A stretch of DNA of 64,000 nucleotides. Origin: Methanosarcina sp. DH2 (lineage in GTDB: Archaea > Halobacteriota > Methanosarcinia > Methanosarcinales > Methanosarcinaceae). The DNA is taken from contig NZ_WJBI01000001.1 of assembly GCF_020804225.1 (NCBI RefSeq), positions 1,411-65,410 of the forward strand, given 5' to 3'. The position numbers and the translations under genes are program-made. Of this stretch, positions 21,477 through 26,280 are shown one piece after another. Positions within the stretch are counted from its first letter, which is position 1. Each line of letters begins with the position of its first letter. The notes beneath the pieces were generated by a model. That model was given only the letters and a program-made list of their open reading frames with translations. It did not search any database and was not told the origin of the DNA.

Positions 21477-22241
21477 TCACTTCAAGCTTTTCCCGCGTAA
21501 GGTTAATTTCTCCTTGAGATCTTTATTGTTAGGATCTTTTTTGCTCAGGATTTCCAGAATATCGAGAGATTCTTTGAAATTCTGTTTTGCTTCTTCCTTT
21601 TTACCTTTTTCAGAAAACAGGATTCCGAGATTATTGTAAGTCATTTCTTTATCTGAGAGGTATTCCATGTCTTTAGGGTAATTTTTAATGAGTTTTTCAT
21701 ATATTTTCAGGGCTTTTTCATATTTTTCTTTTGCTTCTTCTACGCGCCCCATTTTGAAAAGAAGTTCTCCCAGGTTGTTGAAGGTATTTCCGGCATACAT
21801 CTGGTAGAATTCGTTTTCTGGCCGGGACTCAAGCCGTCTCTGGCATATTTCGAGGCCAATTTCATAGCACTGCTTTGACGAAGTAAAGTTGCCCACTCTC
21901 TGGAAAATGTTTCCAAGGTTTCCTATATTGTTGAGATTCAGACGGACGGTATCGAGATAGAGTTTGTTTTCAGGGTCTTCTGAGATGAGTTTTTCGCTGG
22001 TTCTTAAGGAAAATGCATAGGTTTCAAGGGCTTCTTCGAGCCTGCCCACGGACTGCAGGATTTGACCCCTTACTTTTAAAGTATGGAAAAGAATGGCTCC
22101 ATCTTTTGCTTCCTGTGCGGCTTTTTCAGCTAGCTGGAGAGATTCAAGGGACTCTTCAGGCTTCCCTTTTTGTATCAGGTCCACGGTCTCATTAAAGTAT
22201 TTTACTGCTTCCTCTCTCAGTTTCTCTGGCTTCTCGGGCAT
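21477..22241 (-). CDS. Tetratricopeptide-repeat protein
   Basis: A 254-residue soluble protein made of TPR-like helix pairs, for example FNNLGELLFKMGRVEEAKEK and YNNLGILFSEKGKKEEAKQN, each followed by a longer helix (about 42 to 50 residues per unit, as in kinesin-light-chain type TPRs). TPRs are protein-binding scaffolds; no enzyme domain is present. It is a paralogue of the 254-residue protein at 22982-23746, and the two flank a small membrane protein related to the LonB anchor. The start ATG at 22241 gives MPEKPEKLREEAVKYF. Confidence 0.88.
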   Translation of the reverse strand: MPEKPEKLREEAVKYFNETVDLIQKGKPEESLESLQLAEKAAQEAKDGAILFHTLKVRGQILQSVGRLEEALETYAFSLRTSEKLISEDPENKLYLDTVRLNLNNIGNLGNIFQRVGNFTSSKQCYEIGLEICQRRLESRPENEFYQMYAGNTFNNLGELLFKMGRVEEAKEKYEKALKIYEKLIKNYPKDMEYLSDKEMTYNNLGILFSEKGKKEEAKQNFKESLDILEILSKKDPNNKDLKEKLTLRGKSLK

Positions 22242-22450
22242 ATTAAAAAAAGGGTTTTTATTGTTTTATAGGTTATGTTATAGCTTGTGTTTTTTCCCGC
22301 TGTTTCTCCCTTTTTTCCAACTCCTTTATATGTTACTAAAAGCTTAATTATAGATGCCCGAAGTTCTATACCTTTCTTTAACACACGTTTTCTGAAAATG
22401 TTGCTGCTTATCGACATTAAAATGGGTTATAGACATGTAGGGGGGTCAGC

Positions 22451-22927
22451 ATGGACGGGGAAGCAGAGAAACAAAAAAGGGATAAAAATGCAGACAGGGG
22501 TAGAAGCAAAACTGCCGGAAATAGCAAATATGCTGGAAAAAGCAAATATGCTGGAAAAAGCAAATATGAAAGACTCTATATAATACTCGTTGGTATCTTC
22601 CTTACCGCTGTCTTTTTCTACACCCTTTACATAGGTCAGCTTTTCTGGGGCATATTTATTGATATTCTTATCCTGAGGCTTTACTTCCTCATGCAACAGG
22701 AGCGGCGTTACTTCAGGGAATGCAACTTGAATGAGGACGAAGCCGGAACTGCGCATGACCCTGGGGTGAAGCGGAGGATCAGGCTGGCAAATTTCCTGAT
22801 TACTTTATTCGTTCTCGGGATTGTTGTCTACTCATATTTTACTTTGCAGTTTATCTGGGGGATTGTGGTCGGACTGATGATCCTGCTCTACGTTCATATG
22901 CTGTTGTTTTCGGAGAAAAACCTCTAA
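22451..22927 (+). CDS. Small membrane protein built from two LonB-like hairpins
   Basis: A 158-residue protein. Residues 1-40 are basic and contain a five-residue repeat (YAGKS, twice, encoded by a 15-bp repeat). Residues about 42-80 form one transmembrane hairpin (TLYIGQLFWGIFID inside) and residues about 113-153 a second. The second closely matches the membrane hairpin of the LonB gene 1.3 kb downstream: LFVLGIVVYSYF / FIWGIVVGLMIL here against LFVVGIIIYSYF / LLWGIIAGIMIL in LonB; the first shares GQLxWGI. No ATPase or protease domain is present. It may pair with the LonB anchor in the membrane and so regulate or recruit the protease; that is inference. ATG 22451 follows AGGGGGGTCAGC. Confidence 0.8.
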   Translation: MDGEAEKQKRDKNADRGRSKTAGNSKYAGKSKYAGKSKYERLYIILVGIFLTAVFFYTLYIGQLFWGIFIDILILRLYFLMQQERRYFRECNLNEDEAGTAHDPGVKRRIRLANFLITLFVLGIVVYSYFTLQFIWGIVVGLMILLYVHMLLFSEKNL

Positions 22928-22981
22928 GAAGCCTCTAAGGGAAGCCGGTGAGAAAAACCGATGACAGAATTAACCGAATTA

Positions 22982-23746
22982 TTAAAGTCCTTCCAGCCTC
23001 TCTCTTGTCAGGGTGATGGCTTCTTTGATTTTTTCGTTTTCAGGCTGCTGGGCTAGCAGATTTTCCTGCATTTTAAGGGCTCTTTCAAGGTTCTTTTTTG
23101 CAATCTCAGCTTTTTCAGGCTCCTGCTGTTTGAGGCAACTTCCTAACTGGCTGAGCGCAACTGAGAGTTCTGCCTGGTACCCGGGATTGTCAGGCTTATC
23201 TTCCAACAATTTTTCATAGTTTTCAACTGCTTCTTTAAGGATTTCACAGGCTGTTTCCCGGGAGCCGGACTCTATGAGGAGAGCACCGTAGTTATTCAGG
23301 TTTTCTCCGGCATAAGAGTGGAAAACTACGTTTTCAGGGTTCTTTGCAATGAGGTCCGAATAGATTTCACGGGCACGGGAATAGGATCCGGCAGCTCTGT
23401 CCATTTCTCCTTTCTTTTTAAGGAGATTTCCCGTATTGCTAAGGGTTGTGCCCATGTAATGCTGGTAATCGTCATTCTCCGGATCAGTTTTCAGGAGGTC
23501 GGAACCTACTTCGAGGGCTCTCTCATAGGTTTCAAGGGCCTGGTCATACTCTTTTGCCGAATAGAGGATACCTCCGCGAGTAAAGAGAATATAGTAGAGA
23601 GCATCTGTGGATTTCGCCTGTCTTGCAGATTTCTCGGCTTTATCAAGGGTGTCGAGGGCTTTATCCAGCTTTCCTTTCTTGATCTGGGTTACAGCACTGT
23701 GAATCTGCTTCAGAAGGAGAAGATTTTTTACCTTGCTTCTGGACAT
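22982..23746 (-). CDS. Tetratricopeptide-repeat protein, paralogue
   Basis: A 254-residue TPR protein sharing length, layout and many positions with the one at 21477-22241 (for example ALETYERALEVGSDLLKTDPEN against ALETYAFSLRTSEKLISEDP). Units such as LSNTGNLLKKKGEMDRAAGS and LNNYGALLIESGSRETA are visible. No signal peptide or membrane segment. It is transcribed away from lonB, its start 456 bp from the lonB start, so both promoters lie in one divergent region. Confidence 0.88.
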   Translation of the reverse strand: MSRSKVKNLLLLKQIHSAVTQIKKGKLDKALDTLDKAEKSARQAKSTDALYYILFTRGGILYSAKEYDQALETYERALEVGSDLLKTDPENDDYQHYMGTTLSNTGNLLKKKGEMDRAAGSYSRAREIYSDLIAKNPENVVFHSYAGENLNNYGALLIESGSRETACEILKEAVENYEKLLEDKPDNPGYQAELSVALSQLGSCLKQQEPEKAEIAKKNLERALKMQENLLAQQPENEKIKEAITLTRERLEGL

Positions 23747-24201: not shown

Positions 24202-26280
24202 ATGGAGTATAATAATAATCAGAACATAGACGGGTCTTCGAAGAATATGGACAGGCAAGCCCATGAAGTTGAGGAGGCTGTTCCAAAAGTAGACACGTCT
24301 GCGGCCGACCAGATGAAGGATGAGCCTACTCAGGTGCCTACTCAGGTCGTGGCCGAGTCTGAATTAAGTGAAGACATAGATGAAGATGATATCGGCTTCC
24401 GTTTTGAAGACACTTCTAACATAGAGGTCCCAAAACTCCTTATTGACCAGGTACTGGGACAGGAACATGCAGTAGAAGTCGTAAGGAAGGCAGCAAGCCA
24501 GAGACGGCACATAATGATGATAGGGACGCCAGGAACAGGAAAGTCCCTGCTTGCAAAGGCAATGGCAGAACTTCTTCCTAAAGAAGAGCTCAAGGATATC
24601 CTGGTATATCCTAACCTGGAGGACCTTAACAATCCCAAGATAAGAGAGGTTCCGGCCGGGAAGGGCAGAGAAATTGTCATGGCTCACAAGATGGAAGCAA
24701 GAAAGAAAGCCCAGGCCCGGAACATGCTCATGATGCTCTTTGTTGTGGGTATTATCATCTATTCTTACTTCGTCGGCCAGTTGCTCTGGGGTATCATTGC
24801 AGGCATTATGATTCTCATGTTAACCCGCCAGTTCCTTCCTAAAGAGGAAATGATGATCCCGAAAATGGCGGTTTCAAATTATGACAAGGAACACGCACCC
24901 TATATCGATGCAACCGGAGCTCACGCAGGAGCCCTCCTTGGCGATGTCAGGCACGACCCCTTCCAGTCCGGAGGGCTTGAAACCCCCGCACACGACAGGG
25001 TAGAAGCCGGAGATATCCACAAAGCCCACAAAGGGGTGCTTTTCATTGATGAAATCAATACTCTCAGGCTTGAGTCCCAGCAGAGTCTTCTGACCGCGCT
25101 TCAGGAAAAGGAATACGCGATTACCGGACAGTCCGAAAGGAGTTCGGGAGCTCTTGTTAAGACCGAGCCTGTGCCCTGTGACTTCATTATGGTCTCTGCA
25201 GGGAACCTGGATGCAGTACAGAAAATGCACCCTGCGCTCAGGTCAAGGATAAAAGGTTACGGGTACGAAGTCTACATGCGAGATTCCATGGAAGACACTC
25301 CCGAGAACAGGAAGAAACTGGTACGTTTCGTTGCCCAGGAAGTTGTCAGGGACGGGCATATCCCTCACTTTGACGAAGGTGCAGTAGAAGAAATAATCAG
25401 GGAAGCCAGAAGGCGTGCAGGCAGGAAAGGCCACCTTACCCTGAAGCTCCGTGACCTTGGCGGGCTTGTGCGTGTGGCAGGAGATATTGCCCACTCCGAA
25501 GGGGCTCCGGTCACAACTCCTGATCACGTGCTTGCGGCAAAGAGGATTGCAAGGTCCATCGAACAGCAGCTTGCAGACAGTTACCTCGAACACCGCAAGG
25601 AGTACGAGTCCTTCATGAAGAATGGTTCTGCTGTGGGCAGAGTCAACGGGCTTGCGGTTATGGGCGGAGATTCAGGAATCGTGCTTCCCATCGTATCCGA
25701 AGTCACCCCTGCTCTTTCCGGGGCAGAAGGGCGAATTATTGCAACCGGTAAACTCAAGACCATCGCAAAGGAAGCAGTGCAGAACGTATCCGCAGTCATC
25801 AAGAACATGACAGGCACTGATATCTCCCGCCATGATATCCATATCCAGTTTGTCGGGACATATGAAGGTGTTGAAGGAGACAGTGCATCGGTTTCCATTG
25901 CTACGGCCGTTATTTCGGCAATCGAGAGGATCCCTGTGGACCAGACTGTCGCAATGACGGGTTCTCTTTCTGTCAGGGGAGATGTCCTGCCTGTTGGCGG
26001 GGTCACCTACAAGATCGAGGCTGCAGCCCAGGCCGGTATGAAGAAAGTCATTATTCCCAAAGCTAACGAAGCAGATGTTCTTGTCGAAAAGGCATACAGG
26101 GAAAAGATTCAGATTGTTCCGGTTTCCTCTATTGCGGAAGTGCTGGAACACAGCCTTGTGGGTCCAAGAAAGAACACAATTATCGAAAAACTCAAAAATA
26201 TTACAAAACTAAGTTTTGATATTCCGGAAGTATCACCCGCTTCCGTACAGGCTATTAACCTCTTCGGGTGCAGGAACTAA
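24202..26280 (+). CDS. lonB: Archaeal membrane-anchored Lon protease
   Basis: ATP-driven protease that removes misfolded proteins, anchored on the cytoplasmic side of the membrane. The 692 residues contain an AAA+ domain with Walker A GTPGTGKS (108-115), an inserted transmembrane hairpin (about 172-213), Walker B GVLFIDEIN, and a C-terminal protease domain with catalytic S561 (EGDSASVS) and K604 (TYKIEAA). The first 75 residues are an acidic, poorly conserved tail. tldD begins two bases after the stop, so lonB, tldD and tldE form an operon. The neighbouring small protein at 22451-22927 copies its membrane hairpin. Confidence 0.97.
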   Translation: MEYNNNQNIDGSSKNMDRQAHEVEEAVPKVDTSAADQMKDEPTQVPTQVVAESELSEDIDEDDIGFRFEDTSNIEVPKLLIDQVLGQEHAVEVVRKAASQRRHIMMIGTPGTGKSLLAKAMAELLPKEELKDILVYPNLEDLNNPKIREVPAGKGREIVMAHKMEARKKAQARNMLMMLFVVGIIIYSYFVGQLLWGIIAGIMILMLTRQFLPKEEMMIPKMAVSNYDKEHAPYIDATGAHAGALLGDVRHDPFQSGGLETPAHDRVEAGDIHKAHKGVLFIDEINTLRLESQQSLLTALQEKEYAITGQSERSSGALVKTEPVPCDFIMVSAGNLDAVQKMHPALRSRIKGYGYEVYMRDSMEDTPENRKKLVRFVAQEVVRDGHIPHFDEGAVEEIIREARRRAGRKGHLTLKLRDLGGLVRVAGDIAHSEGAPVTTPDHVLAAKRIARSIEQQLADSYLEHRKEYESFMKNGSAVGRVNGLAVMGGDSGIVLPIVSEVTPALSGAEGRIIATGKLKTIAKEAVQNVSAVIKNMTGTDISRHDIHIQFVGTYEGVEGDSASVSIATAVISAIERIPVDQTVAMTGSLSVRGDVLPVGGVTYKIEAAAQAGMKKVIIPKANEADVLVEKAYREKIQIVPVSSIAEVLEHSLVGPRKNTIIEKLKNITKLSFDIPEVSPASVQAINLFGCRN

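Follow-up and report, generated by a model that had tools for sequence, protein, structure and literature searches.

The window analysed here is a 64,000-nucleotide stretch of a Methanosarcina sp. DH2 contig, and it carries, upstream of the gene for the archaeal membrane protease LonB, a small gene whose product, HP2, consists of two hairpins of the LonB type (Table 1). The HP2 frame runs from an ATG at position 22451 to a stop codon at 22925-22927 and encodes 158 amino acids: the N-terminus is variable and rich in lysine, and beyond it lie two hydrophobic hairpins, H1 and H2, joined by a polar linker that is conserved. Within the linker, residues E84, E90, E95, G99, D103 and P104 are invariant in the family alignment A1, and the placement of positive charges suggests that the linker is probably cytosolic. 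A G-run similar to the one ahead of HP2 precedes the ATG in several clade-A relatives, and a sigma-70 scan gave no more sites than shuffled sequences did, sigma-70 being the wrong promoter type for archaea. By synteny, the copy number of TPR1 differs among species, and the TPR genes next to HP2 (21477-23746 in the window; L042, L043, L048 and L056) grow into long repeat arrays in some species; the region is therefore labile, yet HP2, TPR2 and lonB remain together. Other neighbours of the locus we take to be ThrC, TldD and PmbA.

Table 1. Features of the HP2-lonB region, in window coordinates.
Feature	Coordinates	Strand	Basis
HP2, stand-alone protein of two LonB-type hairpins	22451..22927	+	ORF; family alignment A1, n=24
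G-run, possible Shine-Dalgarno sequence of HP2	22440..22445	+	5 nt upstream of ATG; putative function
Hairpin H1, residues ~43-80, weaker LonB-anchor match	22577..22690	+	BLASTP, shuffle controls
Conserved polar linker between H1 and H2, residues ~83-110	22697..22780	+	Alignment A1
Hairpin H2, residues ~111-155, strong LonB-anchor match including preceding basic stretch	22781..22915	+	BLASTP, profiles
lonB, archaeal membrane Lon protease, 692 aa	24202..26280	+	TIGR00764 945 bits, cut-off 516.6
LonB membrane-anchor insert, 58 aa (profile A2)	24691..24864	+	BLASTP, profile searches
TPR2, TPR protein, always between HP2 and lonB, antisense	22982..23746	-	Pfam TPR_12 3.5e-14; 29/29 HP2 loci
TPR1, second TPR protein, divergent from HP2	21477..22241	-	Pfam TPR_12 3.9e-25; synteny

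The initial annotation described HP2 as having no ATPase or protease domain, and this is borne out: the window protein has no AAA or Lon_C match, reaches no Pfam family above its cut-off, and scores 14.1 bits against the LonB family TIGR00764, whose cut-off of 516.6 bits places HP2 outside that family. It likewise lies outside the curated families of Pfam, NCBIfam (at their cut-offs), PHROGs and PADLOC, with otherwise weak matches only. Among solved structures, neither HP2 nor the hairpin has a relative at a meaningful E-value, and the AlphaFold2 monomer model of HP2 was poor (pLDDT 67, pTM 0.30), each hairpin being drawn as one long helix. Viral contigs contained no relative of alignment A1 or of the LonB-insert profile A2; on this ground, and for want of a PHROGs family, a viral origin of HP2 was rejected.

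Each of the two hairpins of HP2 is related to the one that anchors LonB in the membrane. By BLASTP against the LonB of the window, H2 is identical at 23 of 56 positions (41%, E 3e-14) and H1 at 22 of 76 (29%, E 2e-7). The motifs from which this kinship had originally been proposed are indeed present: the second hairpin reads LFVLGIVVYSYF...WGIVVGLMIL in HP2 and LFVVGIIIYSYF...WGIIAGIMIL in LonB, and the first shares GQLxWGI with the anchor (GQLFWGI in HP2, GQLLWGI in LonB). In profile-profile comparison, the HP2 family matches LonB inserts with a probability of 97.9 and E 3.6e-13, and LonB inserts from other classes with E 1.7e-10; in a class-wide search LonB was the best non-HP2 match among the matches listed. 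The match of H2 to the LonB profile spans positions ~4-50, extending beyond the helices to include the basic stretch before them, whereas the other hairpin proteins described below mostly match at ~13-45 only. H1 and H2 resemble each other only weakly (score 63, reached by 42 of 5000 shuffles), so each hairpin is closer to LonB than to its partner.

This likeness was set against chance and composition in several ways. Smith-Waterman scores against the LonB hairpin are 124 for H2 and 82 for H1, and neither was reached in 5000 segment-wise shuffles (maxima 77 and 70). The hydrophobic background comprised 820 48-mers, of which 222 were removed for a loose version of the motif and 598 kept; four of the 598 scored at least 82, and these we interpret as LonB, while the remainder peaked at 74 in what is itself a protein carrying the module. 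Of 202 genomes outside the class, 195 had a single match to the LonB-hairpin profile, which was LonB; the other 7 had no match, and no genome had two or more. A profile made from the LonB hairpins of the other classes themselves gave a second match in 3 of 241 genomes outside the class (G367, G400 and G440), and a scan of genome contigs returned two true relatives and one P-type ATPase, nothing else. General hydrophobicity, which the initial annotation had named as a competing cause of the resemblance, is ruled out by the shuffles, the background hairpins and the 202 outside genomes. The wider proposal that hydrophobicity or convergence of tight hairpins produced the likeness without common descent can point to a bacterial P-type ATPase with the chance stretch VLGIVVYSYF (score 67), from which it follows that some convergence does occur; however, the observed match was equalled in none of these three controls and carries the profile-profile E-value of 3.6e-13, so this proposal is largely refuted and we regard it as very improbable.

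Among 59 relatives, HP2 is full-length or nearly so in 24 of the 30 genomes of the genus and in none of the 29 others. Over the whole class it occurs in 29 of 237 genomes, restricted to three related genera, with the five further genomes (G115 to G119) belonging to two sister genera. The order HP2, antisense TPR gene, lonB, with HP2 and lonB on the same strand, is found at all 29 HP2 loci, and the gap between HP2 and lonB ranges from 1161 to 3939 bases (median 1485). The three genera comprise 36 genomes, 7 of which have no full HP2: G004, G011, G023 and G030 are interrupted by a contig edge (G023 retaining a broken piece), and G009, G015 and G016 truly lack HP2 and retain lonB, which indicates that HP2 is dispensable. 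In G015, an IS-like fragment lies close to where HP2 was lost. G033, G034 and G035 represent three further genera of this family. In them u178 lies upstream of lonB, as does thrC in G034 and G035, and neither HP2 nor a TPR gene stands between u178 and lonB; the simplest account is therefore that the block was gained by the common ancestor of the HP2 genera, and with a single ancestral insertion the linkage of HP2 to lonB amounts to one inherited event. The proximity of the two genes is conserved synteny, not independent linkage, neighbours such as TPR2 also being kept. The expectation that the gene would always lie near lonB thus holds in 29 of 29 genomes, but these represent one vertically inherited locus in which the TPR neighbour is kept equally well.

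The HP2 family is under purifying selection, and the protein has been maintained for a long time. Median dN/dS is 0.13 in clade A, where 58 of 66 pairs could be used, 0.20 in clade B (28 of 28) and 0.15 in clade C (3 of 3), calculated on 23 of the 24 aligned members with the frameshifted G017 excluded, and values are similar across H1, the linker and H2. At residues identical between HP2 and LonB, codons are shared at 3 of 10 positions in H1 and 4 of 13 in H2, no more than random codons would give; the likeness is therefore ancient and has been preserved at the protein level. For the HP2 of the window, a recent transfer of lonB sequence, whether by copying or by gene conversion, was considered and rejected, the longest exact DNA run being 7 nt in each hairpin. 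In clade B (L031, L042, L049, L051, L052, L057 and L058) the frame is intact and conserved and contains no in-frame ATG, GTG or TTG before H1, except for one GTG at the H1 edge in L049; this may reflect a rare start codon or a frameshift. A short upstream frame in this clade ends at a stop in a different frame. That HP2 is a decaying, functionless fragment of lonB would account for the missing start in one clade, for the frameshift within H1 of G017 and for the broken piece at a contig end in G023, but every clade, the start-less one included, has a dN/dS of 0.13-0.20 and the matched stretches of 24 relatives contain no internal stops, and we find decay scarcely credible.

The hairpin is not confined to HP2 and LonB. 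At a threshold of E<=0.001, the LonB-hairpin profile matches, besides these two, 6 additional open frames within the genus (30 genomes) and 31 elsewhere in the family (78 genomes); in family f2 it matches 8, spread over 6 of the 17 genomes, and in family f5 a single one across 34 genomes. From 40 inspected match sequences (23 + 17), the carriers in Methanosarcinales include OB-fold-like, PLDc_N, Yip1, single-hairpin and double-hairpin proteins, most of them not near lonB, with the common hairpin pattern YS-Y/F-x-x-G-Q-L-L-W-G-I-I. In the OB-type proteins, the hairpin (profile E 2.5e-13 against that of LonB) is joined to a soluble domain whose model (pLDDT 73) is an OB-like barrel, the closest structure matching weakly at E 0.009, and two members scanned gave no Pfam match above cut-off. 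The PLDc_N assignment rests on PF13396 (6.5e-8, one member tested) and that of Yip1 on PF04893 (2.2e-13). OB-type proteins of about 160-220 aa occur in several genera (L123, L125, L131, L134, L137, L116, L121, L130, L132, L146, L148-L151 and L157); those in which the hairpin precedes a PLDc_N-like two-helix domain are mostly 70-145 aa (L120, L122, L124, L126, L129, L135, L136, L144, L145 and L147), with several copies per genome in one genus. In G013, a 57-aa open frame beside an IS-type transposase (L061:4967-5140, minus strand) encodes a single LonB-like hairpin and seems to be an OB-type family member that has been cut short.

Because the hairpin is present in other small membrane proteins, LonB and HP2 are not the only carriers of the anchor. 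It is thus a membrane module put to repeated use, and HP2 is the copy fixed beside lonB. Such reuse broadens the finding and weakens a reading in which HP2 and LonB are related only to each other: the homology to the anchor that was originally proposed stands, and the hairpin also occurs in unrelated proteins encoded mostly elsewhere.

Sequences at the hairpin tip offer suggestive signs of lineage tracking. In f2, the LonB tip varies by genus (YTGTLIWGII, FFSGMLIWGII), and a separate two-hairpin protein bears the LonB tip of its own genome in G043, G055, G051 and G071, and less exactly in G066; in the close relatives G043 and G055 its gene lies ~4.3 kb downstream of lonB (L128:9365-9850 and L127:9419-9901, both on the minus strand). 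Hairpin 1 of the G055 protein shares a 29-nt exact run with lonB, a length reached in none of 4000 random-codon trials, which makes sequence exchange or recent descent likely there; short-tract gene conversion is a possible source. In G071, the shared serine is encoded by TCA in lonB and AGT in the two-hairpin gene, so the tip match was not simply copied. Over 21 related hairpins, hand-picked after inspection, the own-family advantage was 1.49 residues of 22 and was reached in 0 of 20000 permutations; within f2 the true labelling scored best, of only 6 labellings. Copies of the f2 protein (G043 C181, G055 and G066) also sit with a cassette, presumably nucleotidyltransferase-like, that is a possible alternative partner. 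For the OB-fold family of the genus and its neighbours, tips matched by eye in 5 of 10 cases against ~4 expected, a count to which we give no weight. The LonB tip itself changes from G/A/S-QLLWG to YELIWG in G001 (L031) and G015 (L045).

What HP2 does can be approached through its resemblance to LonB and its place in the genome. Our leading, still tentative reading is that HP2 is a four-helix protein acting as a LonB partner, packing against the anchor of the protease and tuning LonB. HP2 would then be a membrane protein made from two copies of the anchor hairpin, both ends and the linker probably facing the cytosol. The LonB insert is flanked on both sides by cytosolic parts of the ATPase, so it must presumably cross the membrane and return, and by charge both HP2 hairpins should be oriented alike. 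To judge from homology and locus, the HP2 hairpins could pack laterally with those of LonB, as LonB subunits may pack together; such packing would bring HP2 into the LonB membrane ring or to its edge. Through its conserved acidic linker, perhaps with the neighbouring TPR protein, HP2 might then modulate the assembly of LonB or the entry of membrane substrates. Consistent with a partnership are the kinship of both hairpins to LonB, in H2 beyond the helices into the basic stretch, and the own-lineage LonB tip (YTGTLIWGI; FFSGMLIWGII) that the f2 two-hairpin protein carries. The gene order is fixed at 29 of 29 loci despite varying TPR1 copies and gap lengths, and H1, linker and H2 are all under purifying selection. 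Against it, conserved columns of HP2 and LonB are uncorrelated (Spearman -0.01 for H2 and 0.00 for H1), the linkage reflects one locus, the module occurs in proteins far from lonB, and HP2 is dispensable.

We consider it equally plausible that the hairpin is a general two-helix module of Methanosarcinales, employed in LonB, HP2 and several unrelated proteins for anchoring or some other purpose, and that HP2 makes no contact with LonB, acting alone or with TPR proteins. The variety of proteins that carry the hairpin away from lonB speaks for this, as do the linkage of HP2 to TPR2, which is as tight as that to lonB, and the conserved columns that HP2 and LonB do not share; however, H2 is closer to LonB than the other modules are, juxtamembrane stretch included, and HP2 stands beside lonB in 29 of 29 genomes. 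Rather unlikely is that the LonB anchor serves as a membrane 'address', a homotypic docking hairpin by which HP2 and the OB-fold, PLDc_N, Yip1 and double-hairpin proteins assemble with LonB, with coevolution or exchange of sequence keeping the tips of one lineage alike. The initial annotation proposed a decoy or adaptor that inserts into, or competes with, the LonB anchor. As a decoy or inhibitor, HP2 would occupy the positions of LonB hairpins and cap or block assembly of the hexamer. A protein with two LonB-like hairpins and no catalytic domain, encoded beside lonB, would suit that role, but H1 has diverged far (29%) and a pure decoy would not need a conserved linker; we think such a role more doubtful still, and prefer a modulator that becomes part of the LonB membrane ring to a pure decoy.

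LonB is described in PMC9263693 as essential in Haloferax, where it controls membrane processes; for M. mazei, PMC4350412 reports LonB among Con A eluate proteins. Searching by locus tag for the presumed M. mazei gene returned nothing relevant, and the open-access literature searched contained no membrane partner of archaeal LonB of the HP2 kind. A family built from the protease's own anchor, which beside lonB may touch and tune LonB inside the membrane, offers a direct and testable entry to LonB membrane partners, and reuse of the anchor in unrelated proteins raises the question of whether a protease anchor can act as an interaction code. Small proteins that inhibit or modulate membrane and Lon proteases include YccA, SpoVM and phage PinA. 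They resemble the role proposed for HP2 in acting as small proteins on an ATP-dependent protease, and none of them is known to be a copy of the protease's own transmembrane anchor. HflK and HflC are SPFH proteins, and the SPFH domain was absent among the matches listed for the HP2 family (25 of 39 Pfam families, 24 members, E<=1). According to PMC12048511, membrane partners of FtsH such as HflK/HflC form assemblies with this membrane AAA+ protease and govern how membrane substrates gain access to it. The comparison with HP2 is one of how such a partner might work: HflK/C are unrelated in sequence and, unlike HP2, are not built from the anchor of their protease. LonB carries two transmembrane helices inside its AAA domain, according to PMC4864567 and PMC9569914. 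Archaeal LonB (TIGR00764) and HP2 are alike in this anchor hairpin, whereas HP2 is without the AAA+ and protease domains and has two hairpins per chain; the other hairpin proteins of Methanosarcinales share the hairpin with HP2 and bear it alone or fused to OB-fold-like, PLDc_N or Yip1 domains.
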